DNA of 46,615 nucleotides from Oscillospiraceae bacterium (GTDB lineage Bacteria > Bacillota > Clostridia > Oscillospirales > SIG519): assembly GCA_015067255.1 (NCBI GenBank), contig SVMS01000014.1, positions 1-46,615 on the forward strand. The letters run 5' to 3'. A program made the position numbers and the translations under genes. The number at the start of each line of letters is the position of its first letter. Position 1 is the stretch's first letter. The notes beneath the pieces are model-generated. The model made no database searches and was not told where the DNA came from. It saw nothing but the letters and a program-made list of their open reading frames with translations. Of this stretch, positions 18,483-43,883 are shown piece after piece.

Positions 18483-21400
18483 TCACTCTCCGAAGCGGAT
18501 GTTTTTAACGTAATCTCTTATTGATACCATATCCGAAATATTATCTTCTGTCAACAGATTTGAGTTTTTTCTGAAATTGTTGAAAACAACAGTATCTATA
18601 CAGCTCTGCTCAGAGGTAGCGCTGAGAATTGATTTCAATTCTCCCGTACCGTTATAGCTTATATCTTCAAAAACAATATTTCTGATTGCTCCGCCCTCTG
18701 ACCAGAAAGGATTATCGGAGCTTTCGTTACGTATAAAGAAAAGAGAAGCTTTTTCAGGTGCTCTGAAGCTGTCTATTCTTATATCTCTAACGGTGATATT
18801 GCTTATTTTGTTGCCTGCTGTAGACCAGAACCAACAAACACCTGTAAATTTACTTAAATTCCAAACGCCCTGCTGATTTAAGATGTCATTGTTTTCAAAG
18901 GTGATGTTTGAAATATCGGCATATGTGTTTTCCCCAAGGCCCAACAAAAAGATTCTTGCACCGTCGCCCCAGAAAACACTGTTTTTTATAATGTTGTTGC
19001 TTGAATATCCGTAGTGATAAATAACGAACTGGTCATCACAGCTTCTTACAAAACAGTTATCCACTGTACTGTCAGAGCTTGCGCTGAGATGTATTCCGTC
19101 TGCATTGGTTACGCTTCCGAAGCAGTTGACATTATTTATCTGTATATTGTTGCTGTAATTGGCTACAATGCTCCACATAGGCGAGTCTATAACAGTTATA
19201 CCGTCTATAGCGGAATTTTGCGAGGAGGTAATCCATATAGCTCCTGTTCTGCCCTCCGCATACTGCATAGAATGTTCATTTTTACTGCAATCGAGTATTC
19301 CCCGTCCAAAAATCTTTACGCCGTTTATCTCGTCTGCAGAAATGGAGCCGTATACATACGATCCCGAAGCAAGATATACTTTTACATTATCCTTTGAAAT
19401 GAAGAAGGACTCAGCAGAATGCCAATTACCGTACATCTGCACTGAAGCATAGACTGTATTTTCATCGCCGTCAGTAAGTTTTGCAAAGGTTTTTAAAGCT
19501 CCTGCACATGCTTTTCCCAACGCTACGTTTTGACCTGTATATCTCTCAAAAAGCTTTAATTCCTTAACGTAATTTGCAAATATCAGATTCGTATAATTGC
19601 TCATCTGACCTTCGCCGTTATTTCCGCAAAGCTTTATTCTTACACGGGAGGTACTGACAGCAGAGAAGCTTGCTCTTATTGTACCTGTGGATGAATTTTC
19701 TTTACCGTCATATATAAGTCTATATTGCTGTGTTGCTTCATCCTTTGCATAAAGCTCAAATTTCTGAGGCCCTGTCATAAAATAGTTTTCTTGCAAAGCT
19801 CCCTGTACCAATTCGAAGCTGTTAATAGTCTTTGTCTGTCCGAAATCTATATCTGCCCACATTCCCTGAGGAAGATTATGAACTCCCGCTTTAAAATAAT
19901 AGGTATCCTTATTTTCAGGAAGCTCTAACGGAATTTCATCTCCCGCCTCTATTACATATACATTTTCGTCATTTTCCGACGGAGCGTCAGTCTCAGGATT
20001 TCCCGTCATAATATGCAGACAAAGGTCATACCAATTATCGTTAATTCTCAAAACAAGCTTTTGTGTGCCGTCACTTGTCTGTGTCAAAGGGAAAATAAGA
20101 GAATTATCATTTATCTGCATAGCATTTATGCCGTCAGAGTAAGGGCGGATATCATAGGAGTTGATTTTTCCGCCGTTGTATACTACCTTCATATCAACAG
20201 TACCGCTGAAATCAAAATTAACCATCGAGGCATTTACCCTCTCCGAAAGCGTACTGTTTTCATCGCCCTCCTGAGTTCCCACCGGAGTATTATAGACAAA
20301 CAGTTCTTGCCACTTGGGACTTCCCGGCTGTCTTACATATACCGAATAGGAAGTATTTTTTTCAATTTCATCGGGGGCATTTGATGCGTTTATATTTTGA
20401 TTTTCTTTAAGCAATAAATCTTTAAGGCTGAGTAAATTTGTTATATTTACTCTTCCGTCAGCGGAAATTGCCATTTTCTGCGCCTCTGAAAGCACAGAAT
20501 TATAAAGGAAATGCTTTCTTAAGGATATCGCATCGAGCACATTAACTTTTCCGTCTTCACTGACGTCACCGTATACCGATAAAGTATACTGAGTATTTAT
20601 ATTATCATATTTAATGGATAGCTTGCTTCCCGTTGCAACCTTGCCGTCATTTTGCAAGTCTGACACAATTTCGGCAAAAGCAGAACAGCTTATTCCCCTG
20701 ATAAACTCCTCTGATGTTATTCCGTTAGGAATATTATAAATAACATCATCTTTTAATTTAAGGGTGCTTATATCTGCAGGTAATGTACCCGAATAGGTTT
20801 TAGACCAGCCCTCTTCTGGTATATAAGAAAATCCGCAAGGAGAAAGATACGCTTCCCCAAAGCTGATAGGTCCACGGATTTCAAAGCTGTTGGCAACCTC
20901 AGGGTCAAATTTTGTTATGCCCTGTTTATCTACCCAAATCTGAAGTTTTCCTTCACCGCTTTCATTTTTTGGGAAAATATGTACCATAGCCGCATAATCA
21001 TGGCCTGCTAAGGCACAAAGACTTTCAATACTTTGTCCGTTTATGTATATACGCTGACGGATAGCATCTTTGTAATCTGAGCTTGCCTGAATATTATTGA
21101 GCTCTGTTTTGGTTACGTATTTGCTAAGCTCAAGGGTGATAAGATAATAGCTTCCGCTTTCGCTTATTTCGGGTGCCGAAAGCAAAGCTGCTACTGAATT
21201 ACCTGCTGTGCTGTTAATCCAATTTTCCTCATAACAGTCATAAATAAAAGCAGCTTTTGAAAAGTTTTTTTTGTTTAAAGTTATGTCATTTTTAATTTCA
21301 AAAACATTATAAGAAGATTTATCAAGCCCAGCTAAATTGACTTTATCCAGCCATATTTCCATAAGACCTTGTCTGTTTTCGTCTGCGGGATGCAGACTTA

Positions 21401-21695
21401 CCATAGCCGCATAATCATGACCTGCTTGTGTGCATAGCTCACCTATACTTTTCCCGTTAATATAAAGTGAGCTTTTAATTGTACTCGCAAAGTCAGCACT
21501 TGCCTGCAAGTTCATCATAAGGCTGTCTGTAACAGGCACATCTGTCTGAAACTGTAATATGTAATATCCGCCGTTTTCTACAATTGTGCTTTTGTCGGCA
21601 AGAAAATTAATATATGTCTCCTGTGCAGAAATGTGTGCCTGACAGGGTAAAAGCAAAAGTATTAAAACTAAAAATAAACAAATATATCTTTTCAT
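18483..21695 (-). CDS. Secreted modular GH28-like beta-helix enzyme with internal dockerin
   Basis: The protein has 1070 residues and a signal peptide (1 to about 24). Two copies of the island's repeated module lie at about 28-160 and 170-295. An internal type I dockerin occupies about 376-430: the first loop is good (DVSEDGKVNVLDAISL), but the second lacks its first acidic residue (ISADGRVNITN). Residues about 575-715 resemble a discoidin-like sandwich. The C-terminal part (about 760-1070) is a right-handed beta-helix with TNADGIHLS and RSCDDQF near 863-889, the layout of GH28 polygalacturonase-type sites. Linkage specificity is unknown. Its ATG overlaps the stop of the upstream gene by four bases. 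Confidence 0.75.
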   Translation of the reverse strand: MKRYICLFLVLILLLLPCQAHISAQETYINFLADKSTIVENGGYYILQFQTDVPVTDSLMMNLQASADFASTIKSSLYINGKSIGELCTQAGHDYAAMVSLHPADENRQGLMEIWLDKVNLAGLDKSSYNVFEIKNDITLNKKNFSKAAFIYDCYEENWINSTAGNSVAALLSAPEISESGSYYLITLELSKYVTKTELNNIQASSDYKDAIRQRIYINGQSIESLCALAGHDYAAMVHIFPKNESGEGKLQIWVDKQGITKFDPEVANSFEIRGPISFGEAYLSPCGFSYIPEEGWSKTYSGTLPADISTLKLKDDVIYNIPNGITSEEFIRGISCSAFAEIVSDLQNDGKVATGSKLSIKYDNINTQYTLSVYGDVSEDGKVNVLDAISLRKHFLYNSVLSEAQKMAISADGRVNITNLLSLKDLLLKENQNINASNAPDEIEKNTSYSVYVRQPGSPKWQELFVYNTPVGTQEGDENSTLSERVNASMVNFDFSGTVDMKVVYNGGKINSYDIRPYSDGINAMQINDNSLIFPLTQTSDGTQKLVLRINDNWYDLCLHIMTGNPETDAPSENDENVYVIEAGDEIPLELPENKDTYYFKAGVHNLPQGMWADIDFGQTKTINSFELVQGALQENYFMTGPQKFELYAKDEATQQYRLIYDGKENSSTGTIRASFSAVSTSRVRIKLCGNNGEGQMSNYTNLIFANYVKELKLFERYTGQNVALGKACAGALKTFAKLTDGDENTVYASVQMYGNWHSAESFFISKDNVKVYLASGSYVYGSISADEINGVKIFGRGILDCSKNEHSMQYAEGRTGAIWITSSQNSAIDGITVIDSPMWSIVANYSNNIQINNVNCFGSVTNADGIHLSASSDSTVDNCFVRSCDDQFVIYHYGYSSNNIIKNSVFWGDGARIFLLGLGENTYADISNITFENNDILNQQGVWNLSKFTGVCWFWSTAGNKISNITVRDIRIDSFRAPEKASLFFIRNESSDNPFWSEGGAIRNIVFEDISYNGTGELKSILSATSEQSCIDTVVFNNFRKNSNLLTEDNISDMVSIRDYVKNIRFGE

Positions 21696-23445: not shown

Positions 23446-24702
23446 TTAACTGTCTTTAAGAGTATCGTTAATTGCGTTGCTCAGCATATTTTCATAGGTA
23501 TCCATAGCTGTTGAAACAGGGATTGCAGAAAGAGTAACTGCGTTCCAGAACTGATAGTAATAATCGTCTGCCCAAGAGGGAAAGTTTTTATCTGACATAG
23601 TAAAGGCAAGGTCAGAAACCTCACGGGTGATTTTAAGCTGTTCATCTGTTAAATTACGCTCAAGAGGAGTTCTTACGCCTGCATCAATATCCTTTTGTCC
23701 CTCATCTTTGAGTATCTTCAAAAACGCAACTGCACCCTCAACGTTTTTAGTGTTATAGCCTATTCCGTAGAAAAGTCCGTGTCCGTCAGCGCTCTGAGCA
23801 TCTCCCTTTTGCATAACGGGAAGCGGTACGCAGTCCACCTCGTCGGAAAGTCCCTCGCAATACTCTTCAATAAAGCCTATTGCATCAACACTCATAGCTA
23901 TTTTACCTTTTTTGAAATTAACCTTAGGATAACCATAGTCGCCGTTCCATACCTTGTGTGTATTTACAAGGTCATAGGTAAACTGTATCGCTTTTACGAT
24001 TTTATCATCTTTCCAGCTTATAGCTACATTTCCGTCATCACTTACATTTACAAAGCCCTTTGCAACGGTAGACACAAAAATATCGGGATACATACTTGAA
24101 AATCCCCAGGTTGAAGCAGTAGTTGTCTGTTTTGCGCAATCGAGGAAGGTTTCCCAGGTCCAGTTTCCCTCGTTATAATATTCCTTAGGTGTTTTAACGC
24201 CGAAATTTTCAAACATAGTTTTGTTATACCATATAACCTTACCCCAAACACCGTTGGTATAGCCTGTGTAATGCTTTCCGTTCCAAGAGGCTGACTTAAC
24301 CATTCCCTGATATGGTAATGAGTTGTAATCAATAAGGTCGTCAACAGGCTGAATAATCTTTTTAATTGCAAAGGAAGGCATCCAGGATGTTGTAACCTGA
24401 ACTATTTCAGGAGAAGCATCAGAAGCTATAAGGCCCATAAGCTTAGAACGATATACATCACTTGAATAAATAGACACTGTAAGCTTTCCGCCATAAGTCT
24501 TTTCAAAAAGCTCTTTTGCTCTTGATATAGGAAGTGTATCGTCGGTAAATCCGGGGTCAAAGTGAGAAACAAGTGTTATATTAGGGTTTTCAAGCTTTCC
24601 TGTGGGTGTTTGTGTGCCGCCATCAGTAGTCTTTCCACAGGAAACAAACAACGAAGCAATAATTGCCAAAGCGCACATAATAGTCAATATTCTTCTTTTC
24701 AT
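23446..24702 (-). CDS. Sugar ABC transporter substrate-binding lipoprotein
   Basis: This 418-residue extracellular solute-binding protein (family 1 type) has a lipoprotein signal ending in LFVSCGK, so it is anchored by a lipidated cysteine near residue 22. Conserved surface features include TGYTNGVWGKVIWYN and the closing-domain motif KGKIAMSVDAIGF near 265-277. It would present oligosaccharides to one of the two permease pairs; the MalF/MalG pair at 31948-33810 is on the same strand and otherwise lacks a dedicated partner. GGGAGGA lies inside the end of the upstream glycosidase gene, eight bases before the ATG, implying coupled translation. Confidence 0.9.
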   Translation of the reverse strand: MKRRILTIMCALAIIASLFVSCGKTTDGGTQTPTGKLENPNITLVSHFDPGFTDDTLPISRAKELFEKTYGGKLTVSIYSSDVYRSKLMGLIASDASPEIVQVTTSWMPSFAIKKIIQPVDDLIDYNSLPYQGMVKSASWNGKHYTGYTNGVWGKVIWYNKTMFENFGVKTPKEYYNEGNWTWETFLDCAKQTTTASTWGFSSMYPDIFVSTVAKGFVNVSDDGNVAISWKDDKIVKAIQFTYDLVNTHKVWNGDYGYPKVNFKKGKIAMSVDAIGFIEEYCEGLSDEVDCVPLPVMQKGDAQSADGHGLFYGIGYNTKNVEGAVAFLKILKDEGQKDIDAGVRTPLERNLTDEQLKITREVSDLAFTMSDKNFPSWADDYYYQFWNAVTLSAIPVSTAMDTYENMLSNAINDTLKDS

Positions 24703-29933: not shown

Positions 29934-29934
29934 A

Positions 29935-31869: not shown

Positions 31870-31947
31870 AGTTCTTCTCCATTCTGCACTCAAGCTTTTT
31901 TGTAGAATTTACCGTATTTAAAGCGGCAACGGTAATGCCGTTTTTGA

Positions 31948-32901
31948 TTAGCCTACTATTCCCGTTTTTTCAATGCTTTCCGTAAAGAACTTTTGCAAGA
32001 AAGCATACATTATTACCAAGGGAATAACCGTTAAAAAGCAGCCTGCCTGAATAAGCGTTACGCTTTGGAAACGGTCTATCGCAGCTCCTAAGGGGCTGAG
32101 AAGCGAAAGGTTATCGGACAAATACTGGAGAGAAGAGGAAACGGTTTTAACGTTATCCAAAAATACCGTGGAATAAAAAGTATCGTTCCAATACCATACG
32201 GAAGAGAAAAGAAATGTAGTAAGTATGGCAGGTCGTGCAATAGGCACCATTATCTTCAAAAAGCATCTGAAAGCACCGCAGCCGTCAATATATGCGGCTT
32301 CCTCCAGCTCCTTGGCAACATTTCTGAAAAACTGCCTGAAAATGAAGATAAATAAGCCTGACCTTATTCCCATTCCAAACATCGAGGGAAGATACAGCAC
32401 CAAGGGAGTATCAAGAATATTAACTCCGCTGAAATCTCCCGTAAATATAAATTTAATTGTTGAAATAATATAGAATGCATCAAAATTACGGTACTGCAAA
32501 AACGAGGATATGACCGTTGTTGAGGGCGGTACTATTATAGTAAAAATAACTATTGCAAAAAGTATATTTTTAAAGCGTATGGGAAACCTTGCAAAGCCAT
32601 ACCCTACCATACAGCACACAGCTGTCTGTATAACAACGCTTATAGCATCAAGATAAAAAGTATTAAATAAAGCCTTTGGATAGTCTATAAAATTCCATAC
32701 CGAAATAACGTTTTCAAGGGTAAACTGAGTGGGTATCCATACTATATTGGGGTCCTCAACCTGAGCCGCCGGACGAAAAGCAATACTGATTATATAGAGT
32801 AAAGGATATAGCACTATATAAGATATTTCCAATAAAAGTATTGCTCTGACAATGGCATATGCTATATGCCGTGTTGTTTTTAAAGCGTGTATCTTTGTCA
32901 T
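31948..32901 (-). CDS. Carbohydrate ABC transporter permease, MalG type (importer 2)
   Basis: The membrane protein has 317 residues and six predicted helices. The cytoplasmic EAA loop that contacts the ATPase is clear (EEAAYIDGCGAFRCFLKI, then MVPIARPA, about 215-240). MalG-type subunits pair with MalF-type ones, here the gene directly upstream. GAGGTGAG lies at the end of that gene, just before this ATG. The likely binding protein is the lipoprotein at 23446-24702. No ATPase gene is nearby. Confidence 0.93.
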   Translation of the reverse strand: MTKIHALKTTRHIAYAIVRAILLLEISYIVLYPLLYIISIAFRPAAQVEDPNIVWIPTQFTLENVISVWNFIDYPKALFNTFYLDAISVVIQTAVCCMVGYGFARFPIRFKNILFAIVIFTIIVPPSTTVISSFLQYRNFDAFYIISTIKFIFTGDFSGVNILDTPLVLYLPSMFGMGIRSGLFIFIFRQFFRNVAKELEEAAYIDGCGAFRCFLKIMVPIARPAILTTFLFSSVWYWNDTFYSTVFLDNVKTVSSSLQYLSDNLSLLSPLGAAIDRFQSVTLIQAGCFLTVIPLVIMYAFLQKFFTESIEKTGIVG

Positions 32902-32910
32902 ATTCTCACC

Positions 32911-33810
32911 TCAATACTCGCTATGTTTCGTATTTCTTCCCACGAAGAAGAATACAAGTGCCAGCACAATCATTATAAGTACAAAATAGCCCCACGACAT
33001 AGCACTTGCATATGCATAGCGCATATTTTCCTTGTATGCAACATCTATAAGCTTGATAACAGGGTTATCATAGCCTGTAAAGGAGTCAATAATACTGTAT
33101 ACAGTAGCTACAAGTACAGTGGGCAACAGCATAGGAAATGTTATTTTCCAGAACGAAATCCAAGCGTTTGCACCCTCAATCTGCGCTGCCTCATAAAAGG
33201 ATTTGGGAATTGACTGTATTGCACTCAGAAAAAGCAATATCTGTATTCCGCTTTGCCATATGAGGTCAAAAATATTGTTTATTACTCCCGTAAGGGCTTC
33301 TGTAATTTTTGAAGGTACATTCATATTGTTGAGCATAGATGTAATTCCCGTAGCATTGAAAAGAGTTGAATTAACATCGCCCTTCATTATGTTCTGTGCA
33401 AATATATCATTTTTCAAAAGCGTTATTACTATTGAAGAGGCGATTATAACGGGTAAAAACAGTACAACTCTGGAAAAAGTTCTTCCTATAAATTTCTTGC
33501 TTAAAATAAGTCCTAAAAACAAGCTTATGGCAAGAATAAGAGGCACTTCCGAAACAATGTTTTTAAAAGCGTCTAACAAAGCAGGCAGGTATTCTGTATT
33601 TTCAAAGAAAATTTCATTATAGTTTTTAAAGCCTATCCATGCGCTTTCTATTCCGTCAGCTCCGAAGCTTATGCTCGAAAAGCTATAATACAGCGAATAA
33701 GCAATAGGCTTTATAAAAAACAAAACCAAGCCTATAAGCCACGGCAAAATAAACATTATTCCGTATCTTTCAAGCCTTTTTTCATAGGAGCTCCTGCTTT
33801 TAATTTTCAT
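32911..33810 (-). CDS. Sugar ABC transporter permease, MalF type (importer 2)
   Basis: A 299-residue membrane protein with six predicted helices and a recognisable EAA loop (FYEAAQIEGANAWISFWKI, then TFPMLLP, near 205-230). Together with the MalG-type protein it forms the translocation pore. The ATG at 33810 is preferred because AAAGGGGG lies eight bases upstream within the end of the DUF5696 gene; an in-frame TTG at 33816 sits two bases after that site. The 11-base overlap with the DUF5696 gene implies coupled translation. Confidence 0.93.
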   Translation of the reverse strand: MKIKSRSSYEKRLERYGIMFILPWLIGLVLFFIKPIAYSLYYSFSSISFGADGIESAWIGFKNYNEIFFENTEYLPALLDAFKNIVSEVPLILAISLFLGLILSKKFIGRTFSRVVLFLPVIIASSIVITLLKNDIFAQNIMKGDVNSTLFNATGITSMLNNMNVPSKITEALTGVINNIFDLIWQSGIQILLFLSAIQSIPKSFYEAAQIEGANAWISFWKITFPMLLPTVLVATVYSIIDSFTGYDNPVIKLIDVAYKENMRYAYASAMSWGYFVLIMIVLALVFFFVGRNTKHSEY

Positions 33811-35983
33811 AAGCAACGCCCCCTTTTAAAAAGCAATAGCTTTCAGCCTTTACGGTGTTTCCGTTTACTGAAATATCCTTATCTGAATAGTTTACTATAA
33901 CGCTGTAGCCGTTTTGGTAAACTGTTTCAAAAACGTCCTTTTCAAGCTCTCTGTGAGCTGTCATATACTGACCTGCGACAGCTTTATAAAAGCTTCTTGT
34001 ACTGTTATAAAGAGTATGTATTCTCTCTTCCCACACAGCACTGTTACAGGAATAATAGCCTTTTTCAGATGTTTTATGTATTATATCCGTATTTCGCACA
34101 ATAAGAGAAAAGTCGGGCGCTGCACCGTACTCAATACTCTTGAGAATTGCAAGCTCAGTATCTCCTTCAAGGTTTACCGAATTTGAAGCATAGTCGCATA
34201 TACCGTGAATAACCATCTGATAAAAAGGAATATCTTTTGTAAGCATATCATACTGACTTGATTTCATAGGAACAGAAGAAATCATATTGGCAGTGCTTAA
34301 AGAGTATATAAAGGCATCTTTAAAATAAATACCCTCTGAAGCATTTGATATTTTTTCAAAGGCTGTTTGTGTGATATCCAACATAGCCTGTCTGTCAAAA
34401 ATATTGTTTTTATCATAATCGGAATACAAATTGGCACCGCTGTTATAAATTCCGAAAGCACCGTTTATTTTATTAACCGATTTTGCTATTGTATCTGATA
34501 TTTTTTCTAAATTCAAAGCCGATATAAGATACCATTTTTTAAAGCTGTGATTTTTATCGAAGGTATTGAGATAATAGCTGAACTGCTCTGCTCTTGCTCC
34601 GCTGACGCTTCGGCTTACTCCCGTTATAGAGGAAATTCCGTTTCCGCCCTTATATACCTTTTGTATATCAGCAAGCAAATAAATGTTTTTATTTTTTTCA
34701 ATAAGAGTATTAATCTTTTTTACGTTTCCTATTTTTTTATTTATGGAAAGGTTTGTAGGTATTTTACCGTAAAGACCGCCCTTGAAAGCTCCAAGCATCG
34801 ACACAGAAACGCTGCCGTTACCGTTTTGTTCAAATTTTTCAAGAGCCTTTGAAACATCATCAAGGGTTGTCAGCGTAACCTGTCCCGTATAGGGAATACC
34901 TAAAAAGCTTTTTTTGATTTCGGCAGAAGCAAGATAAGAAAGATTTAAAGCTATACCCTGTGATTTTTTATCAGATAAATTATATTTGTCAATTAAATAA
35001 TTTCTGTAAAGCTCAGCCATTCCCGAATAATCGGCATTTTCTCCCTCAAGAAAATAATAGCCGACTCTGAATTTTTCTTTGCTGTAAGGCTTTTTGGGGA
35101 CAACGTATAAAACTCTGTCCTCGTTACTCATTTCCGCCAGATGAGTGGTATCAAGAGCGCGATAGTTAAAGGTTACTCCTGCGCTGTTATAACTTGTTTT
35201 TATTCCTGCAAGGTCTGCATTGATTGTGCAGACAGCCGCACCGTCTTCAACTATTGCAAACATTGCCGATTTTTCGCGTTTAATTGCGAATATCGGCATA
35301 TATACCTTTTCTTCAACTGTATCCTTAAACTTTTTATAAAGTATGGGATCCTCCCCGTAAACTTCTTTTGAATATCCGAATTTATATGAGGTCATAGAAT
35401 TAAATTCTGCAATTGCGCCGCTTCCGTCGGGAACTAATAAATATCCCTTTTCATCTGCGTATGTTGCTCCGAAATATGGCAAAAGGGAAATTGAAATTAT
35501 TTTATTCTCCCCTGTTTCTTTTATCTCGCTTGCGATAATATCTACGCAAAGTCTGTCCTCTTCAAGAGTAATTTCCACGGGTATTACAAAATTTTCTTCT
35601 TTGAAATTGTATTCAAAACGAACACCATTGCCATTTTTAGTGCCGGAAAGGGAGCTTTTATTTATAACTGCAACCTTTGAGTTTTTAACAAAGGTATTCT
35701 TTTTTGCATCTATGTATTCTACTGTTATCTGAGACATCATATTGGTTCTTTCCATACCCACGGCATTGTCATCGGGCTTTTCAAGAAACGGCTGTGAGCA
35801 ATAGATATCTCCGGAAGCTTTTTCGGTTACAAAGAAGTCTCCGTTTGAAAGGTTTGCATTGAGAATAAGCTTCGAATTTTGGGCAATAACCTGCGTTTCC
35901 TGTGGCTGAGCCTCAGCGCAGACACAAAAGCCGCAACAAAAAACAGTTATAGCGGTAATAAGCACAGCAACAATCCTTTTCAC
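33800..35983 (-). CDS. Secreted DUF5696-domain protein
   Basis: This 727-residue protein has a signal peptide (about 1-24) and starts with GTG, preceded by AAGGAGGGG six bases upstream. The N-terminal half is beta-rich with the block PYFGATYADEKGYLLVPDGSG near residues 195-215, which I associate with DUF5696. The C-terminal half is alpha/beta (LADIQKVYKGG, KWYLISALNL, GIYFKDAFIYS), suggestive of a barrel of glycosidase type, but I cannot point to catalytic residues. DUF5696 proteins tend to occur with sugar ABC transporters and Yip1-family proteins in Gram-positive genomes, and that arrangement is seen here. Role in uptake or in glycan cleavage is unresolved. Confidence 0.8.
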   Translation of the reverse strand: MKRIVAVLITAITVFCCGFCVCAEAQPQETQVIAQNSKLILNANLSNGDFFVTEKASGDIYCSQPFLEKPDDNAVGMERTNMMSQITVEYIDAKKNTFVKNSKVAVINKSSLSGTKNGNGVRFEYNFKEENFVIPVEITLEEDRLCVDIIASEIKETGENKIISISLLPYFGATYADEKGYLLVPDGSGAIAEFNSMTSYKFGYSKEVYGEDPILYKKFKDTVEEKVYMPIFAIKREKSAMFAIVEDGAAVCTINADLAGIKTSYNSAGVTFNYRALDTTHLAEMSNEDRVLYVVPKKPYSKEKFRVGYYFLEGENADYSGMAELYRNYLIDKYNLSDKKSQGIALNLSYLASAEIKKSFLGIPYTGQVTLTTLDDVSKALEKFEQNGNGSVSVSMLGAFKGGLYGKIPTNLSINKKIGNVKKINTLIEKNKNIYLLADIQKVYKGGNGISSITGVSRSVSGARAEQFSYYLNTFDKNHSFKKWYLISALNLEKISDTIAKSVNKINGAFGIYNSGANLYSDYDKNNIFDRQAMLDITQTAFEKISNASEGIYFKDAFIYSLSTANMISSVPMKSSQYDMLTKDIPFYQMVIHGICDYASNSVNLEGDTELAILKSIEYGAAPDFSLIVRNTDIIHKTSEKGYYSCNSAVWEERIHTLYNSTRSFYKAVAGQYMTAHRELEKDVFETVYQNGYSVIVNYSDKDISVNGNTVKAESYCFLKGGVAYEN

Positions 35984-35999
35984 GTTATTCCCCTCCTTC

Positions 36000-36637
36000 T
36001 TACATTCTGAAAACTATCTCGTTATATATGTTCATTATAAATATCAAAAACTGTTGTGTCATACTGAATACTATGACGCACAAAAAGGCTATCAATGCCA
36101 TAAATACAATACATACAACAAGAGAAAATACGGTTTTTTTCATAGTAAACCTATGAACCTCTTTCATTCCTATCATAAGCAAAAGCACCGACCATATAAT
36201 TCCTATTGTTGATATTATTTCTATAAAGGCTTGCTCTCTCAATACCAAAAGATTTGTCAGCACCGTATTTATAAAGGAAGCTATGATATACGGTGTCAGA
36301 GAAAAGCCTGTAACAGTGAAATTTCAATAAAAGTAGCTTCTCCCTCTGTCAAAGCACAAAAAGCCCAGTTGCTTACAATAAAGCAAGCGTACAGCGCAGT
36401 AATTATCGCCGCTTCAAGCAAAAGATTTACGTTTTCGATTTTTGCGGTGTTAAAGAGAAAGCCGTTAAGCACAAGAGTTAATATTCTTGCAATAAATACA
36501 AGGGCAAGCTGACAAAATATCTGCCATATCGCACCCGCCTTTTTATATTTTATCTGTTCTGAACAATCAAAGGGGGCCGTTATGTATTTAATGGGGTTTA
36601 AAAATTTTCTGTCAATCCATTGTTTCATCTTTTCCAC
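36000..36637 (-). pseudogene. Yip1-family membrane protein, frameshifted
   Basis: The gene begins with ATG at 36637 and reads MEKMKQWIDRKFLNPIKYITAPFD, with membrane helices, until ALTEGEATFIEIS. It then hits TGA about nine codons later. Shifting frame at 36315-36325 continues the protein without a gap as TVTGFSLTPYIIASFINTVL and on to the stop at 36000, giving about 212 residues and five predicted helices, as expected for Yip1-family proteins. One base is missing relative to an intact frame. Yip1-like membrane proteins occur beside DUF5696 and sugar transporters. The lesion may be a real mutation, a phase-variable or programmed shift, or an assembly error. The start overlaps the upstream gene by 26 bases. 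Confidence 0.82.
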
Positions 36638-38072
36638 CCCTCTTTTTTATATTATTAAGCTTAACTATTAGCAGTACAAACAAAACGACTGCGCCCAAAG
36701 CAAAAAAGATGAAATTCTTTCTCATAAATTCAATTCTGAAAGCGGAATATGCCATATCGTATTTTTCTCTGTCCTCAGACAAGGAAAAATATCTCATAGC
36801 AGTACGGTATTCTTCCTGCTTGTAATATCCCATACCTATACCCGATAAAGCCGCCTGATAATTGGCATTTTTCTCGTATATTTTCTGCCATATGGGCATA
36901 GCCTGCACATACTCTCCCTTGCTGTCGAGTATAAAAGCTTCTTTTATGCTGTTTGTATATTCGGTAGGAGAAAGCACAAATACGGCATTTTTTGTATTGT
37001 CAAGAACATACACCTTTTCACCGTATACAGATAAAGCACACGGATTTCTGAAGGTGCCCTTTTGTTCTCCTATACCTCCGAATACAGCCACAAGCACGCT
37101 GTCCTGAGAATATTGGAATATACGGCCTCTTGTAACATCAAGAGCATAAATAAAGCCGTCATTATCAACAGCTATATCCTGAAAAGAGCTGTCAAGAGTA
37201 GTTCCCGCATCTGATATAATACGAAGGTCGCCGTAATCTCCGTTTCCAATTTTACGTTCGGGAAAATCGGAATTATATTTCAAAATATTATTGCCGTAGG
37301 GATTGAATTTTTTTATTTCCTGCATAGAATTTTCAGTGCTTGCGGTAACGGTATATATAAAATCGTTATTGTCCACACAAACTCCTGTAAATTCAACGGG
37401 AATAGTCTGTTTCATATTGGCTTGCTGAGTTTCTGTGAAAATGTTTTTCCAGAACTGTGAAGCTATAACGGAAAGAGAAGCCTGAATTTTATTTGAGCCG
37501 AAATAGCCTATCATTTTTCCAAATTGGTCAACAGTGATAAGTCCGTTGTAGTCGCCCTTACACACAATCTGTATTATACCCGTAGAGTCTACACTCAGGC
37601 GCTGAGGCTTGAATTTAAAATCGTCCCCTACTATCTGAGAAGGCACAAAATCAAGCTTTTCAAAAATACAGGTATTTTTCTCAGCGACATATATTTCCCC
37701 TTTGTCGCTTGCACAAAGGAATATTTTTTCATCAGTTACAAAAATACCGGTACAATCAGCAAAAGACATATTCTGTGTAGGCAGTATTTCCTTGACAAAA
37801 TTATCACTGCTGTCAAATACAGCCAATCTGTTGTTCTCGCAGTCTATAACATAAAGGTTTCCGTCTTTATCGTGAGCCATATCTGAGGGAGCAGAAAGCT
37901 CTTTTCCCGTTTTTTCTTTGACATCAAGCTTTTTTTCATAGATATAGGTTTGGGGAGAAGGTACTGCTTCTCCTGTTACAGAATAGGTATAATCGTTATA
38001 GTTGGAGACTGCATATGCGCTCATTGGCATTACAAAAAGCAGTATTGCAACTATTATAAATATTCTTTTCAT
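36612..38072 (-). CDS. Secreted membrane-anchored NHL beta-propeller protein with TPR segment
   Basis: The product has 486 residues. A signal peptide (about 1-22) is followed by NHL-type beta-propeller repeats to about residue 370 (MAHDKDGNLYVIDCENNRLAVFD, IAVDNDGFIYALDVTRGRIFQY, SVYGEKVYVLDNTKNAVFV). Next come one or two TPR-like helical hairpins (GEYVQAMPIWQKIYEKN, MGYYKQEEYRTAMRYF). It ends with a membrane helix near 460-477 and a charged tail. The propeller should lie outside the cell. Such proteins typically mediate binding; the partner is probably one of the adjacent importer proteins. The ATG at 38072 has AAAGGGG upstream. An in-frame alternative at 38156 would prepend 28 residues ahead of the signal peptide and is rejected. 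Confidence 0.8.
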   Translation of the reverse strand: MKRIFIIVAILLFVMPMSAYAVSNYNDYTYSVTGEAVPSPQTYIYEKKLDVKEKTGKELSAPSDMAHDKDGNLYVIDCENNRLAVFDSSDNFVKEILPTQNMSFADCTGIFVTDEKIFLCASDKGEIYVAEKNTCIFEKLDFVPSQIVGDDFKFKPQRLSVDSTGIIQIVCKGDYNGLITVDQFGKMIGYFGSNKIQASLSVIASQFWKNIFTETQQANMKQTIPVEFTGVCVDNNDFIYTVTASTENSMQEIKKFNPYGNNILKYNSDFPERKIGNGDYGDLRIISDAGTTLDSSFQDIAVDNDGFIYALDVTRGRIFQYSQDSVLVAVFGGIGEQKGTFRNPCALSVYGEKVYVLDNTKNAVFVLSPTEYTNSIKEAFILDSKGEYVQAMPIWQKIYEKNANYQAALSGIGMGYYKQEEYRTAMRYFSLSEDREKYDMAYSAFRIEFMRKNFIFFALGAVVLFVLLIVKLNNIKKRGGKDETMD

Positions 38073-38091
38073 ATCGCAGTCCCCTTTCTTT

Positions 38092-38952
38092 TTATTCTTT
38101 AATTCCTGAATTTGCCATAGTTTCAATAATTTTTCGCTGAAACAGTACAAAGACAAGCACAGGCGGAATTATCATAAGCAACGTTCCCGCTGCACCTGCA
38201 CCTGCACGGGACATTCCCGAGGATATTATCTGTGTCAGCATAGCAGGCAAAAGCTTTTTTGACTCTGTAAAAATCATTCCGTTACCATTGCTGTTCCAAA
38301 GTGACTGAAAAGTAAAAATAACAACCGTTATCCACGCAGGCTTTACGGCAGGTGTAACTATGCCAAAGCATATTCGCATCTCTCCCGCCCCGTCTATCCT
38401 TGCCGATTCAATAACGGCGTTAGGCACTGTGGACATAAACTGTCTTAAAAGAAATATACCCAAGGTTGAAGAAAAGACAGGAGCAAGAATTGCCATAGGA
38501 GTATCAAGCCAGCCTAATTTTGCAGTTATAAGATATCTGGGAACGGCAAGCACATTTCCTGTATATAAAAGCGAAAGAACTATTATTTTGTTATATAAAT
38601 TTTTGCCGAGAAAATCGTGCTTTGAAAGCACATAAGCGCCCATAATACTGATAAAAACAACCGTTGTAGTTCCTGCAAAGGCTACAAAAACCGTATTATA
38701 CACATATTTTGGAAAAGGTACTCTGAGATTTGCCGCTATGTCAAATAAATCAAGAAAATTATCGGCTGTGGGATTGATAGCATAAAACTTAGGCGGGAAA
38801 ATGAAAAATTCCTCAACCGGCTTAATTGAGCTTGCAACGGTGTAAACAAGGGGAATTATCATAAATACTCCCAAAACAAACAAAAACATTATCGTTATAA
38901 TATTTCCGCCCAAGGAGCGATTAAGCTTCTTTTTCTTCGAAATTCTGTTCAT
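38092..38952 (-). CDS. Carbohydrate ABC transporter permease, MalG type (importer 1)
   Basis: A membrane protein of about 286 residues with six predicted helices. The EAA loop is present but diverged (IESARIDGAGEMRICFGIVTPAVKPA near 185-210). It pairs with the MalF-type protein upstream and the giant binding protein. AGGAAGG at the end of the upstream gene can serve the ATG at 38952 (11 bases away) or GTG at 38958 (five bases away); a GTG at 38964 overlaps the site. Start is therefore uncertain by a few codons. No ATPase is encoded nearby. Confidence 0.92.
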   Translation of the reverse strand: MNRISKKKKLNRSLGGNIITIMFLFVLGVFMIIPLVYTVASSIKPVEEFFIFPPKFYAINPTADNFLDLFDIAANLRVPFPKYVYNTVFVAFAGTTTVVFISIMGAYVLSKHDFLGKNLYNKIIVLSLLYTGNVLAVPRYLITAKLGWLDTPMAILAPVFSSTLGIFLLRQFMSTVPNAVIESARIDGAGEMRICFGIVTPAVKPAWITVVIFTFQSLWNSNGNGMIFTESKKLLPAMLTQIISSGMSRAGAGAAGTLLMIIPPVLVFVLFQRKIIETMANSGIKE

Positions 38953-38960
38953 CTTCACCG

Positions 38961-39866
38961 TCACCTTCCTATACGGTTTATTCCTGTGTCTATAATCTTG
39001 TGTATCAGATACATAAACACAAACAATAAAAGAGTTATCGCACAGGCATATCCCATTTCATACCTTATGTTAGCATAGTCATAGGCGTGCAGGGTAACGG
39101 TAAGACCTGCGTTGTTTATACTGGGATATCCGCAAAGCTGAAGGCTTATATCTCCTGCGGAAAAAGAGGTAGTTATCTGAGTTATTGCACCGAAAAGAAG
39201 CATAGGCTTCATCTGAGGCAAAGTCACATACCAAAGCTCTTGCCAACGGTTATGAATACCGTCTATTGCGCCGGCTTCGTAAAGGTCGGGGTTTATCATC
39301 TGAAAGCCTGCTACAAAAGCAAGAAAGCCTGTACCTAAGCTGAGCCACAGCTGAACTAAAATTAAAATACCCAATATCATTTCAGGGTCTTTAAGGAAAA
39401 GCATAGGCTCATTTATTATTCCGTATTTCATAAGCAAGCCGTTTACAATTCCGTATTGGTCCGAGCTGAGTATAATCTGCCATACAACGTACAGCTGACC
39501 TGAAATTGAAGGCGCATAAAAAACGAAGGTGATAAAAGACCTGAGTCCTTTGCTCAAATCGTTTATAAGCCACGCTATAAAAAAGCACAGCACGTAGCTT
39601 AAAGGTCCTGTAATAACGGCAAAAAGCAAAGTGTTCTGTATAGCCGTAATAAACTCATTGTCAGACAAAAGCAAGGATGCAAAATTATCAAGACCAACAA
39701 AAACAGGAGTATTAAAATAATCGTAGGATGTAAAAGAAAGTATAACCGATATTATAATCGGAAAAAGCATAAACAGAAAAAAGAATAAGGAAAATGGCAA
39801 AAGCATAAGATAACTTACTTTTGACTTAGCTATTCTTTTTCTTAAAGAAATCTCCTGTCCTTTCAT
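38961..39866 (-). CDS. Sugar ABC transporter permease, MalF type (importer 1)
   Basis: A 301-residue membrane protein with six predicted helices and an EAA loop (YEAGAIDGIHNRWQELWYVTLPQMKP near 205-232). It forms the pore with the MalG-type subunit encoded next and receives substrate from the fused binding protein encoded just upstream, whose stop codon is six bases before this ATG. AGGAAGGTAATTATT precedes the ATG; the first part is the ribosome site. Confidence 0.93.
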   Translation of the reverse strand: MKGQEISLRKRIAKSKVSYLMLLPFSLFFFLFMLFPIIISVILSFTSYDYFNTPVFVGLDNFASLLLSDNEFITAIQNTLLFAVITGPLSYVLCFFIAWLINDLSKGLRSFITFVFYAPSISGQLYVVWQIILSSDQYGIVNGLLMKYGIINEPMLFLKDPEMILGILILVQLWLSLGTGFLAFVAGFQMINPDLYEAGAIDGIHNRWQELWYVTLPQMKPMLLFGAITQITTSFSAGDISLQLCGYPSINNAGLTVTLHAYDYANIRYEMGYACAITLLLFVFMYLIHKIIDTGINRIGR

Positions 39867-39871
39867 AATAA

Positions 39872-42712
39872 TTACCTTCCTATAATCTCAAGCTGAGCGC
39901 TTTTTCTCTTAAGCTCAGTGTCTATTATTTCTCCGTACTTTTCAAGCACGGTTCTCGCCGTATCATTTGACAGTATAACATCGGATATAGCGTTTGTCAG
40001 ATATCTGCTTACAAAATAATTTCCCGGCACCTGTTCAAAGGTGCTGACGTTTTCCCACTGTTCCTTTATAACCTTTACTGCACTTGAAGGCCACGGGATT
40101 TTTTCAAATGCGTTTTTATTTGCAGTTAAGTATCTTCCCGAAGGACCGAGAATTGTTTCAACCTCCATACCGTAACGGTATTGAGCGTCCTCACTTGTCC
40201 ACCATTTCATAAACTCCCAAGCCAGCTCGTAGTTTTTACAGGACTTGAACATTATTGAAGATACTCCCGTAAACTCACTTGTACGGTTAAGACCGTTTTC
40301 ATCGGGAGTGCCGGGAATTAACGAAATTGACCATTTGCCCGAAATTTCCGGTGCTGCAAAGGAAAGATAGTTATAGGTTGAAAGAGGCGCTATACCTATG
40401 GGCATTTCTCCTGTTCTGAAACGGTTGGGAAAATCGTAATACACAGGCAATCCAAACTCGGTATATAAATCGGTAAGCTGTTTAAAAGCATCTATTGCTT
40501 CGGTGCTATTAAGATTGTTGCCTGTAAGATTGCTGTTATAAAGCTCCACTTTGTTTTGCATCAGGAAAGTATACAGCATTTTTGGCGGCTCTGTATTTAT
40601 CGTACCTGCAACGGTCTGAGTAATGCTTGGAATACCCACGTCCATATTGTTTCTTGCAAGAATCGGTACTATATCCTTAAGCTCTTTCCATGTTTCAGGA
40701 ACTTTAAGCGAAAGCTCCGAAAAAATATCGGTACGGTAAAACATTACGTTAAATTCCTGAACCTCAGGCAGAGCGTAATATTTTTCCTTATAGCCATAAG
40801 GCTTAAGGGCGCTATCATAAAAGTTCTTCTTTGTAAATGAATCAAAGTCCTCAAAATCGCTCAAGGGGACAAGAATTCCTCTTGCCGCATAGTCAACAGG
40901 GGCGCTCATTCCGATATTCAAAGCAATGTCGGGCCCGTTTCCTGCCACAACTGCTTCCACAAGATTTCCCTGTACTAATTTCAAATTTACACTTGCGTTA
41001 TTGTCGGTTTTAAAATATTTTACAATAAGATTGCTTAGGCTTTGAGCCTGGTCACGTCCCGCAGAAAGCCAGACATCTATTTTTTCTGTACCTTCAGCGC
41101 CGCCGATACTGTCGTAATCGACAAAAAACGAGTAAATAAAGCTCTTAAAAAGGCTCACTGCAGACTCAAAAAATCCTGCGTTTGCCTTAAGATTTTTTTG
41201 AAGATTATTTCCTAAAGCAATATAATCCACATATATCGGATAATTGCTTGCCGAAAGAAGCCAAGCAGAAAATGCGCTTATATTGGATTTAAGATTTGAA
41301 ACTCTCGAAGCAATACTTCTCGGCTTTTCAATAAAGCTTTTTATCTGCTCTGAAAGAGTCATTACAGAAGAAGCCTGAGCCGCGGTTGAGTGGGACATCT
41401 CCTCCATGTTGTCAAGTCCCTTTTCCAAGCCTTGCATTATATTTGTAAGGCGCTCAATAAGATTAGGGACGGATTTTTCTAAGTTGTAATCACGGTAAAG
41501 GTCGGGAGATGTGCCAGTTATCATAATGATATCAGTATAAATGTCTGTTACATCAGTCAATAGCTTTTCAAAGTCAGCTATTATATCCTTCATTTCACCT
41601 GTTGTAACTTCCATTCTCAAGGCATGCTTTCCCTTTTCCAGATAGAAAAGATAAGGAGTGCCGTTTTCATCGGAAAGTGTTTCGATTTTCCAGGAACGGT
41701 CATACCCGAAGCCATAGCCTTCCATTTCCTTGAACGGTATTTCCCCGTCAATATAAATTGTACGGTAGCAGTTCATTCCGTTAAGCTCGTTCTGACGAAG
41801 CCTTAAAGCTATTTCATAAAGTCCGCTTGTTTCTACGTCGATATTCCATTCTATCCATTGAGAAGGAGAAGACCAGTTTGTTCCGCCTATCATATTAAGT
41901 CTTACTCTTTTTTCGTCAAAGGGATAAGTTGCACAGCTTGACTTATCAGCCAACGGATAAAGTAAAGCGTCTGACTTAAGAGCTTCCTTTTCTCCCTGTA
42001 TTATAAGAGGCTCGCCTTCATAACGTTCATTTTGATAAGAGGAAATATATTGACTGTAACCAACAACCTTACCGTCAGTTGCCACTTCTATTTGTTCTAT
42101 ACAAACTCCGCCGTTTACAGCGACAATATCCAACGAATGTATGCCTTGTGTAAAAAAGAACCGATAATGGTCGCTCATTCCGTTCGATTGGTTATAAAGA
42201 GCAACTGTGCTGTACTTAGCTATTTGCTCCTGCTCAGGACGAAGCTCGTTTTGATTGCGGTCTGTTTCAAAAACATCATTTTTACTTGTATATGTACGCT
42301 TTAAAGAAATATCGTTTGCTTCAAAAAAAGGAACCTGCCCATCTATTTTAACGCAAAGCTCTATTTCACGCTCTGTTTCAACTACTGCGCAATAGGAAAG
42401 ATAAATACAGTAATAGCCCTCCTGCTCTATATCAACCTTTACCGAGACACTATCACCTGCATTTTTGAGAATTACAACCTTTTCTCTGTCTGCATAGCTT
42501 TCAAAGATTGTATCTTCGCTTATGTCAACCTGAGCCTTTGCTTCAAACTCTTTAATCTCTCCGTTATCCTCAAGATATTTTCCGTATGTATAATTATAGC
42601 CCGAGATATCGGTATTCTGTTGAACACTGTTATTTTCAGCCTGAACTGCAAAAACAAAATTAAACAAAAGGACAAAGAACAGTAAAATTGCCGATATTTT
42701 ACTTTTCAACAT
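39872..42712 (-). CDS. Giant secreted solute-binding protein fused to carbohydrate-binding-like modules
   Basis: The product has 946 residues. It has an N-terminal signal sequence ending in AVQAE with no lipobox cysteine. Two beta-sandwich-like regions follow (about 30-215 and 230-385; the second has WIEWNIDVETSGLYEIALRLR and YLEKGKHALRMEV, typical of carbohydrate-binding folds). A helical segment (about 390-530) leads to a family 1 extracellular solute-binding domain (about 540-940: ALNIGMSAPVDYAARG, YALPEVQEFNVMFYRTD, SSIMFKSCKNYELAWEFMKWW). Ordinary sugar-binding proteins are about 430 residues. The ATG at 42712 has AGGAGG eight bases upstream; a GTG at 42721 overlaps that site. It is the first gene of the island's leftward run. 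Confidence 0.85.
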   Translation of the reverse strand: MLKSKISAILLFFVLLFNFVFAVQAENNSVQQNTDISGYNYTYGKYLEDNGEIKEFEAKAQVDISEDTIFESYADREKVVILKNAGDSVSVKVDIEQEGYYCIYLSYCAVVETEREIELCVKIDGQVPFFEANDISLKRTYTSKNDVFETDRNQNELRPEQEQIAKYSTVALYNQSNGMSDHYRFFFTQGIHSLDIVAVNGGVCIEQIEVATDGKVVGYSQYISSYQNERYEGEPLIIQGEKEALKSDALLYPLADKSSCATYPFDEKRVRLNMIGGTNWSSPSQWIEWNIDVETSGLYEIALRLRQNELNGMNCYRTIYIDGEIPFKEMEGYGFGYDRSWKIETLSDENGTPYLFYLEKGKHALRMEVTTGEMKDIIADFEKLLTDVTDIYTDIIMITGTSPDLYRDYNLEKSVPNLIERLTNIMQGLEKGLDNMEEMSHSTAAQASSVMTLSEQIKSFIEKPRSIASRVSNLKSNISAFSAWLLSASNYPIYVDYIALGNNLQKNLKANAGFFESAVSLFKSFIYSFFVDYDSIGGAEGTEKIDVWLSAGRDQAQSLSNLIVKYFKTDNNASVNLKLVQGNLVEAVVAGNGPDIALNIGMSAPVDYAARGILVPLSDFEDFDSFTKKNFYDSALKPYGYKEKYYALPEVQEFNVMFYRTDIFSELSLKVPETWKELKDIVPILARNNMDVGIPSITQTVAGTINTEPPKMLYTFLMQNKVELYNSNLTGNNLNSTEAIDAFKQLTDLYTEFGLPVYYDFPNRFRTGEMPIGIAPLSTYNYLSFAAPEISGKWSISLIPGTPDENGLNRTSEFTGVSSIMFKSCKNYELAWEFMKWWTSEDAQYRYGMEVETILGPSGRYLTANKNAFEKIPWPSSAVKVIKEQWENVSTFEQVPGNYFVSRYLTNAISDVILSNDTARTVLEKYGEIIDTELKRKSAQLEIIGR

Positions 42713-42840: not shown

Positions 42841-42878
42841 AAAACAGTAGGGTATTTTGTCGTAAAATTTACTGTTTT
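42841..42878 (-). terminator. Possible terminator overlapping the araC-type stop codon
   Basis: AAAACAGTA (42841-42849) is complementary to TACTGTTTT (42870-42878), with an inner ATTTT/AAAAT repeat. The stem includes the regulator's stop codon and, read leftward, ends in four T. If real, it separates the regulator from the transport operon. The T tract is short, so this is tentative; it might instead be an operator. Confidence 0.4.
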
Positions 42879-43684
42879 TCTTTTTTTCTCAGGCTGCCCG
42901 GTGTACTTCCTGTATATCTTTTAAAAATGTTATAAAAATGCTTCTTATCGTTAAAGCCAAGCTCAGTGCATATTTCCTCTATCGAAATATCAGTTCCCAA
43001 TATCAGCTCAATGGCTTTATTAAGCCGTTTTTTGTTGACGTATTCTACAATGCTTATACCCATTTTTTTCTTAAAGAATTTAGAAAAATACGAGGTGGAA
43101 TAACCGAAGCGATCGGCTATATTTTCAAGGCGCAGATTGATATAATTGGAGTCGATGTAGTCAAGAATTGCAGGCATAGTTATATCAGTTTTCTGAGCCT
43201 GCTGTCCTGTTGCCATTCTGCCCATATGTATAAGTAACATAGTGAGGTAGGATTTCATCATTGCATAGTAGCCTTGCTTTTCTTCAATAAATTCCTTTTC
43301 CGCCTTTAATACTATGTCTTCAACGTATGCAATATCCTTGCTTTGAAGATGCATAACCTTAGGAAATTCAATGTCTTGCTCGCTAAAATACGTTCTGAGT
43401 AAATCCCACATATCGTCAAAAACAGAGTAGTAAAATATTACGTTTATTAAAAGGAGCTTATCTATTGAATAGTAGGAGTGGCAGTCACCTTTTTTGAGAA
43501 AAATAATGTCCCCTCTTTTAACGGTATATTCTTTTCCGTTTATAGTCTGAACGCCTACTCCCGACAAAATTATCTCTATTTCTACAAACTCGTGAACGTG
43601 TAATTCATTGACAAGAAACTGGTCGTCACGTATTATATTTATCATTTGCTTAAGTATGTTTTCCTGAGTGGTATATATTTTCAT
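42869..43684 (-). CDS. AraC-family transcriptional regulator
   Basis: A cytoplasmic DNA-binding protein of 271 residues. The N-terminal half is a cupin-type sensing domain (ELHVHEFVEIEIILSG near 27-42, then KRGDIIFLKKGDCHSYY near 55-72). The C-terminal half has the two AraC helix-turn-helix motifs (LENIADRFGYSTSYFSKFFKK near 180-200 and IEEICTELGFNDKKHFYNIFKRY near 229-251). It is divergent from the dockerin gene and upstream of the transport operon on its own strand, the typical position for a local activator responding to a sugar. The likely targets are those two transcription units and itself. AAGGAG lies about 12 bases before the ATG. Confidence 0.93.
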   Translation of the reverse strand: MKIYTTQENILKQMINIIRDDQFLVNELHVHEFVEIEIILSGVGVQTINGKEYTVKRGDIIFLKKGDCHSYYSIDKLLLINVIFYYSVFDDMWDLLRTYFSEQDIEFPKVMHLQSKDIAYVEDIVLKAEKEFIEEKQGYYAMMKSYLTMLLIHMGRMATGQQAQKTDITMPAILDYIDSNYINLRLENIADRFGYSTSYFSKFFKKKMGISIVEYVNKKRLNKAIELILGTDISIEEICTELGFNDKKHFYNIFKRYTGSTPGSLRKKEKQ

Positions 43685-43832: not shown

Positions 43833-43861
43833 TTGTAATTGCTTTTATTTTATACTATATT
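43833..43861 (+). promoter_or_regulatory. Weak candidate promoter of the dockerin protein gene
   Basis: TTGTAA (43833-43838) and TATATT (43856-43861) are 17 bases apart. The predicted start near 43868 leaves the AAGGAGG ribosome site almost at the 5' end, which is awkward. The poor -35 would fit a promoter needing an activator such as the adjacent AraC-type protein. Confidence 0.3.
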
Positions 43862-43883
43862 AATAAAAAAGGAGGTTTTTTAT

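Follow-up and report, generated by a model that had tools for sequence, protein, structure and literature searches.

The analyzed stretch of DNA (hereafter, the window) is 46,615 nucleotides long and constitutes contig SVMS01000014.1 (C14 in our numbering) of the Oscillospiraceae bacterium assembly GCA_015067255.1, a genome of 1.84 Mb in 54 contigs that is 97.6% complete. On the minus strand of the window, open reading frames and Pfam matches define a cassette of eight genes with short gaps or overlaps between them, encoding, in order, a giant solute-binding protein (SBP), MalF, MalG, an NHL beta-propeller protein, a Yip1-family membrane protein, a DUF5696 protein, and a second MalF and MalG (Table 1). 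This is the order given in the original prediction, which had been made from the sequence alone, and all the genes that it named were found in place. It had further counted four membrane or surface proteins without a transport role; with respect to sugar import this applies to three of them, i.e., the NHL, Yip1, and DUF5696 proteins, whereas the giant protein is itself an SBP. A scan of the cassette proteins against NCBIfam gave no model above its own cut-off.

The same gene order recurs in other Bacillota. Neighborhoods were compared with gene assignments based on profiles made from the window's proteins. The first set (n = 121) gathered the window, five sister copies from the same genome, 35 copies from genomes of the same taxonomic order, and 80 named Bacillota loci (the best 80 of 268 named relatives in a scan of GTDB species genomes), while the phylum sample comprised 40 loci taken out of 58 new strong DUF5696 matches. 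Leaving out neighborhoods with too little DNA (16 of 121 and 7 of 40, respectively), the full eight-gene order on one strand was present in 100 of the 105 remaining neighborhoods of the first set and in 23 of the 33 of the phylum sample, among them those of Paenibacillus, Bacillaceae, Lachnospiraceae, Christensenella, and others. Chance falls far short of explaining this arrangement, and because the order recurs so regularly in the first set, two unrelated transporters lying side by side were dropped as the main explanation. The five exceptions of that set were the window (broken Yip1 gene), two loci with split frames, one with pore pair 2 located upstream, and one in which the last MalG was not found.

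Table 1. Genes of the eight-gene cassette and selected neighboring genes in the window
Feature	Position	Strand	Basis and remarks
Giant SBP, 949 aa	39872..42721	-	Pfam, PDB profile, AlphaFold, Foldseek/VIA; start at GTG 42721, or at ATG 42712 following an AGGAGG-like site
MalF-type permease 1	38961..39866	-	BPD_transp_1, EAA-loop consensus
MalG-type permease 1	38092..38964	-	BPD_transp_1, EAA-loop consensus
NHL beta-propeller protein with C-terminal membrane helix	36612..38156	-	NHL 49 bits, orthologues; ATG at 38072 is the likely true start
Yip1-family membrane protein, broken gene	36000..36628	-	Open pieces 36296-36637 and 36000-36263, in different frames
DUF5696, GH129/GH101-fold (predicted) surface protein	33800..35983	-	PF18952 551 bits, structure model
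MalF-type permease 2, right after DUF5696	32911..33816	-	BPD_transp_1
MalG-type permease 2	31948..32901	-	BPD_transp_1, EAA-loop consensus
AraC-family regulator, upstream of cassette	42869..43684	-	HTH_18, AraC_binding
Ordinary-size SBP, 418 aa, downstream	23446..24702	-	SBP_bac_8/1
GH28-like pectinase with dockerin	18483..21695	-	PF00295, PF00404
GH106-like alpha-L-rhamnosidase	16421..18478	-	PF17132 119 bits

The incomplete loci of the phylum sample included four with permuted modules (L207, L216, L222, and L223), one rearranged (L209), one with a split MalG (L211), and four in which the module of giant SBP and pore pair 1 was not adjacent (L195, L198, L199, and L204); in several of the incomplete loci the protein beside the core resembles an ordinary SBP, as judged by eye. 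The core itself (NHL-Yip1-DUF5696-MalF-MalG) was kept in 104 of 109 and 37 of 38 neighborhoods of the two sets, i.e., in 141 of 147, and the median gap between DUF5696 and the following MalF is -4 bp (159 loci). In L207, L216, and L222-L224 the modules are swapped, NHL-Yip1-DUF5696-MalFG2 preceding giant SBP-MalFG1, and this points to two units that can be joined. The record of a Butyrivibrio fibrisolvens plasmid lists SBP, permease, permease, NHL repeat-containing, YIP1 family, DUF5696, permease, permease, followed by two more SBPs and preceded by GH43 and a two-component system; as these names indicate, the genes are annotated in the database one by one.

Six copies of DUF5696 are present in the genome of the window, and at E ≤ 0.001 the family was found in 33 of 59 genomes of the same taxonomic order (including G014, with weak matches only). 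Above the Pfam cut-off, DUF5696 occurs in 43 of 398 genomes of the phylum sample and in 75 of 293 of the class sample (the latter figure includes the stand-alone relatives described below), often in several copies, these copy numbers being lower bounds.

This recurrence bears on the possibility that the cassette comprises two ordinary, co-transcribed CUT1 importers, one formed by an SBP with the first MalFG pair and the other by a second SBP with the second pair, next to which the NHL, Yip1, and DUF5696 proteins would be separate surface proteins, belonging to the same regulon but to no joint complex. Such an arrangement would agree with the completeness and EAA-loop consensus of both pore pairs, with the ordinary SBPs that flank 101 of 161 cassettes, and with the permuted or non-adjacent position of the SBP-MalF1-MalG1 module in some genomes. 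It is, however, weakened by the fact that the pores are rarely found apart (the complete order of the first set), since one would expect importers that work independently to be separated more frequently, and by the three accessory genes, which travel with the second pore pair in nearly all of the 147 neighborhoods mentioned above. We therefore regard two independent importers as a rather unlikely explanation.

The genes of the cassette also appear to share their history. In 128 complete cassettes, the distance matrices of the eight genes are correlated (r 0.87-0.96), and one pair, when shuffled 500 times, gave 0.134 at most, but this correlation is weak evidence by itself, since vertical inheritance on its own also produces correlated distances. 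A stronger point is provided by three genomes (G361, G120, and G396) that carry two to three sister cassettes each, seven in total. None of the seven is closest to a sister cassette of its own genome: for six of them, each gene has its closest counterpart in a cassette of another of the three genomes, and the closest counterparts of the seventh (L190) are found in named loci.

The giant SBP consists of a signal region, two beta-sandwiches (approximately residues 62-373), a helical bundle (375-491), and an oligosaccharide SBP domain (544-949). In its AlphaFold model (pLDDT 83), the last of these matches MalE-type SBPs with Z up to 38.7 over 377 residues, and the C-terminal part was assigned to SBP_bac_8/SBP_bac_1 by Pfam. 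PDB entries matched by a profile of the N-terminal half are enzymes and modules of CBM35/CBM6 type, and among 30 sequences scanned CBM_35 was found in 14 and CBM_6 in four at E ≤ 0.01. The giant SBP carries two CBM35/CBM6-like modules.

BPD_transp_1 was identified by Pfam in all four permeases, and the EAA-loop consensus is present in all four across 128 cassettes, although a simple EAA pattern fits only 74 of the 128 MalF2 sequences, the consensus of which shows Glu-Gly replacing Asp-Gly. No ATPase gene was found in the cassettes: the best match in 161 neighborhoods to the UgpC-type ATPase of the genome reached 121 bits. In the genome of the window, one UgpC-type ATPase scores above the cut-off (496 bits); it is encoded on contig C7, on which no DUF5696 was found. 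On a plasmid of Paenibacillus cellulosilyticus, ugpC is located directly upstream of the cassette. In Bacillus subtilis, MsmX powers several importers (PMC5730181). By analogy, the lack of an ATPase gene within the cassettes and the presence of a UgpC-type gene elsewhere fit an ATPase of the UgpC/MsmX type supplied in trans.

The Yip1-like gene named in the original prediction is indeed present, but it carries a frameshift that had been missed: its halves lie in different frames, a Pfam search of the genome scores 45.4 bits with one stop inside, and Pfam gave no match for the frameshifted piece alone. Intact homologs match PF04893 above the cut-off (42-59 bits), the Yip1 genes of the sister cassettes seen in the same genome have no internal stop, and the remaining genes of the operon are open. 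The frameshift means that this copy may be impaired or that the contig may be in error. The predicted NHL/TPR protein was confirmed in its NHL part, whereas TPR was not scored by Pfam in the protein of the window at E ≤ 0.001; a homolog contains TPR_2 at 5.8e-5, under the curated cut-off. The sequences of NHL orthologs show a C-terminal hydrophobic stretch followed by a basic tail, an arrangement that probably places the propeller outside and embeds the Yip1 part in the membrane. In 55 of 161 neighborhoods, NHL and Yip1 form one polypeptide.

The association of Yip1 with DUF5696 was analyzed in the genome of the window and 59 genomes of the same taxonomic order. Thirty-seven of the 40 Yip1 genes above the Pfam cut-off share their strand with a DUF5696 gene at most 3 kb away, and two of 41 DUF5696 copies, both at contig ends, have no Yip1 nearby. 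Both families were found in 31 genomes, DUF5696 only in one (at a contig end), Yip1 only in two, and neither in 25 (Fisher p 2.8e-13). The original suggestion that DUF5696 and Yip1 genes recurrently accompany sugar ABC genes is supported, and the neighborhood analysis, which could have spoken against it, revealed these genes to be associated elsewhere as well.

The structure model of the DUF5696 protein (pLDDT 84, pTM 0.88) matches best, over its whole length, ZGAL_3152/DagB (5opq; Foldseek E-value 3.1e-32); NagBb, a GH129 enzyme, is matched with Z 28.7 over 564 residues, and GH101, GH36, and GH31 structures rank next. A DUF5696 sequence profile finds ZGAL_3152/DagB and NagBb as well (E-values 8.2e-15 and 1.7e-7, respectively), and in a profile comparison with one GH129-like protein the C-terminal part alone was aligned. 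Glyco_hydro_129 (PF11308) was found neither in the DUF5696 protein of the window, which matched only DUF5696 at E ≤ 1, nor anywhere in the genome; a GH129 search of 199 genomes of the phylum gave no matches, which we do not take as absence. According to the model, DUF5696 has a GH129/GH101 glycosidase fold, an assignment that is new here.

Sixteen stand-alone relatives (463-619 aa), with no permease neighbors in the stretches read, were used as a reference for the catalytic center. These proteins are far closer to GH129, NagBb being found at 4.1e-95 by a profile built from 15 of them. They contain Asp at two positions in 16 of 16 and Glu at a third in 15 of 16, all three being present in 15 of 16. 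Pfam labels the stand-alone proteins of L235-L249 as DUF5696, and as these match NagBb and keep its carboxylates, they are probable GH129-like glycosidases. Glu478 of NagBb is presumably its other catalytic residue, but the argument made here does not rest on it, and no catalytic role is claimed for Asp330. One of the three carboxylate columns aligns with NagBb Asp435, the only residue named as catalytic in the cited passage of PMC5698469.

At these three positions the DUF5696 protein of the window has Tyr405, Asn514, and Lys555. In an alignment of 64 diverse cassette copies (65 minus L225), acids occupy the individual positions in 14%, 34%, and 30% of the copies, two of the three in 7 of 64 and all three in 1 of 64. 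A larger conservation set comprised 160 of 162 DUF5696 proteins, two not over 650 aa being left out; here, all three positions are acidic in seven and none in 44, and no barrel carboxylate is invariant, the most conserved one, Asp522, being Asp in 130 of 160. An N-terminal hydrophobic stretch was found in 150 of the 160 and a lipobox-like motif in 65. Judging from the loss of the catalytic-center carboxylates in most copies, the DUF5696 proteins of the cassettes are likely to be pseudoglycosidases in the majority of cases, but a few that keep two or three acids may be active. An alternative is that DUF5696 is a working glycosidase on the cell surface, which would shorten the chain where it enters the importer by means of rearranged carboxylates, and for which the GH129 fold over the full length, the frequent Asp522, and the few copies with two or three catalytic positions kept might argue. 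The absence of any invariant barrel carboxylate, the single copy in the diverse alignment with all three acids, and the Tyr/Asn/Lys of the window make an enzyme of this kind improbable.

The genes flanking the cassettes point to different substrates. Families were assigned from one representative per cluster. The flanks of 161 loci contain 113 ordinary SBPs (in 101 loci), 30 GH26 (24), 24 GH43 with CBMs (17), and 21 GH10 (16), and further clusters comprise regulators, GH2, GH106, GH113, GH3, GH31, and GH42. Of 132 first downstream genes, 103 were scanned (five exceeded 1300 aa and were passed over, and the others fell outside the residue limit), giving 23 SBPs, 18 GH26, nine GH10, four GH16, three GH113, and two GH5. 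The cassettes of the window's genome adjoin GH106 and GH28 (the window), a GH78-type rhamnosidase, a GH127-like protein, GH2 and a beta-helix protein, and GH31 with GH106; for one cassette (L039), no hydrolase was found in the single flanking gene scanned. Because the flanking hydrolases differ, we infer that the copies serve different plant polysaccharides, i.e., mannan or xylan in many of the named loci and pectin-type glycans here. The substrate of the window's cassette would probably be rhamnose- and galacturonate-containing pectin oligosaccharides.

Regulator genes are also frequent in the flanks, and an AraC gene precedes the cassette of the window. They might be taken to indicate that the NHL-Yip1 and DUF5696 proteins form a polysaccharide sensor whose signal is passed to AraC, LacI, or two-component regulators encoded in the flanks, with the importers as effectors. 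Pfam found no signalling domain in the NHL, Yip1, and DUF5696 proteins, and the type of regulator varies while the accessory genes are constant; a sensor therefore seems very improbable to us.

The reading that we favor, and that we consider moderately probable, is that the cassette encodes one two-pore, ATP-driven oligosaccharide importer, with DUF5696 as a pseudoglycosidase receptor and NHL-Yip1 as an assembly scaffold. In such a machine, the giant SBP would grip the polymer through its CBM35/CBM6-like modules and pass oligosaccharides on to the first pore pair. The surface-anchored DUF5696 protein, whose gene takes the place of one for a second SBP, would bind the chain with its GH129-type barrel, in most copies without cutting it, and serve pore pair 2. 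With its propeller outside and the Yip1 helices in the membrane, NHL-Yip1 could keep DUF5696, the SBPs, and both MalFG pores together in a physical complex, much as YknW helps in the assembly of an ABC exporter, and a UgpC/MsmX-type ATPase encoded elsewhere would drive both pores.

Several observations weigh against this single importer. The CBM35 match in the window is under the curated cut-off, the Yip1 gene there is frameshifted, and common species history alone would yield correlated distances between the genes. Acids persist at two or three of the catalytic-center positions in some DUF5696 copies, and Asp522 is widely kept. Finally, in at least four sampled loci there is no adjacent giant-SBP module, so one pore can suffice.

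Further genes in the window deserve mention. The cassette is flanked by three proteins (29088-31893 on the minus strand and 43839-45788 on the plus strand) that have in common an unannotated repeated domain (25-32% identity in BLAST) and no Pfam match at E ≤ 0.001; by eye, two of them end with a membrane anchor and the third with a dockerin-like stretch. Two neighboring proteins of 700-754 aa (24704-26806 and 26803-29067, minus strand) share 31% identity, and a single weak GH14 match was found, in one of them only; they are possibly an unnamed glycosidase pair. An ADP-ribosylglycohydrolase-like gene (PF03747, 142 bits; 21692-23434, minus strand) lies between the pectinase-like gene and that of the small SBP.

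If the cassette indeed encodes one importer, much of the plant-fiber uptake by Bacillota of soil and gut runs through an apparatus not yet characterized, DUF5696 gains a function as a pseudoglycosidase receptor, and bacterial Yip1 proteins gain a second transporter context. The cassette also provides a simple genomic marker for Gram-positive polysaccharide loci. We found no paper on DUF5696 or on the eight-gene set in the literature searched, which excluded most subscription journals and bioRxiv preprints, and to this extent the system can still be called undescribed, as originally supposed. Among publications on the "YIP1 family protein", no title concerned bacterial sugar import, and those combining Yip1 with Paenibacillus concerned bacteriocins only.

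Among known systems, the cassette resembles CUT1 importers such as MalFGK and AraNPQ-MsmX (PMC5730181), with which it shares EAA-loop MalF/MalG permeases and an SBP of the MalE fold, and its ATPase is probably a common one acting in trans; it differs from them in having two pore pairs, a giant CBM-bearing SBP, and three conserved accessory families. Its DUF5696 proteins resemble the glycosidases NagBb (GH129) and ZGAL_3152/DagB in the predicted fold over the full length and in detectable sequence homology, but they are mostly devoid of the catalytic-center carboxylates, mostly have an N-terminal membrane or lipid anchor (judged from simple features), and are encoded inside an importer cassette. 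YknWXYZ likewise combines a Yip1-family membrane protein, YknW, which modulates the assembly of YknXYZ, with an ABC transporter (PMC4887032); in contrast to the cassette, it is a MacB-type exporter, and the available text of that paper mentions no NHL propeller or GH-fold partner. A Gram-positive polysaccharide utilization locus (gpPUL) is defined by a regulator, a polysaccharide-degrading enzyme, and an ABC transporter in one locus (PMC10318527), and the window holds all of these together (AraC, GH106 and GH28, and the transporter), whereas the locus described in that paper, the main text of which does not contain "DUF", has one SBP and one transporter. The likeness to the outer-membrane importer SusC/SusD is a functional analogy only, the named hosts of the cassette being Bacillota. 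Still, it is possible, and we put it forward tentatively, that the cassette is a dedicated glycan-import machine of Bacillota with a SusCD-like role, its two pores being supplied by the giant SBP and by a one-time GH129 glycosidase that has become a receptor for the chain, and in which one eight-gene chassis has been re-aimed at mannan, xylan, or pectin through swaps of hydrolases and divergence of the receptors.

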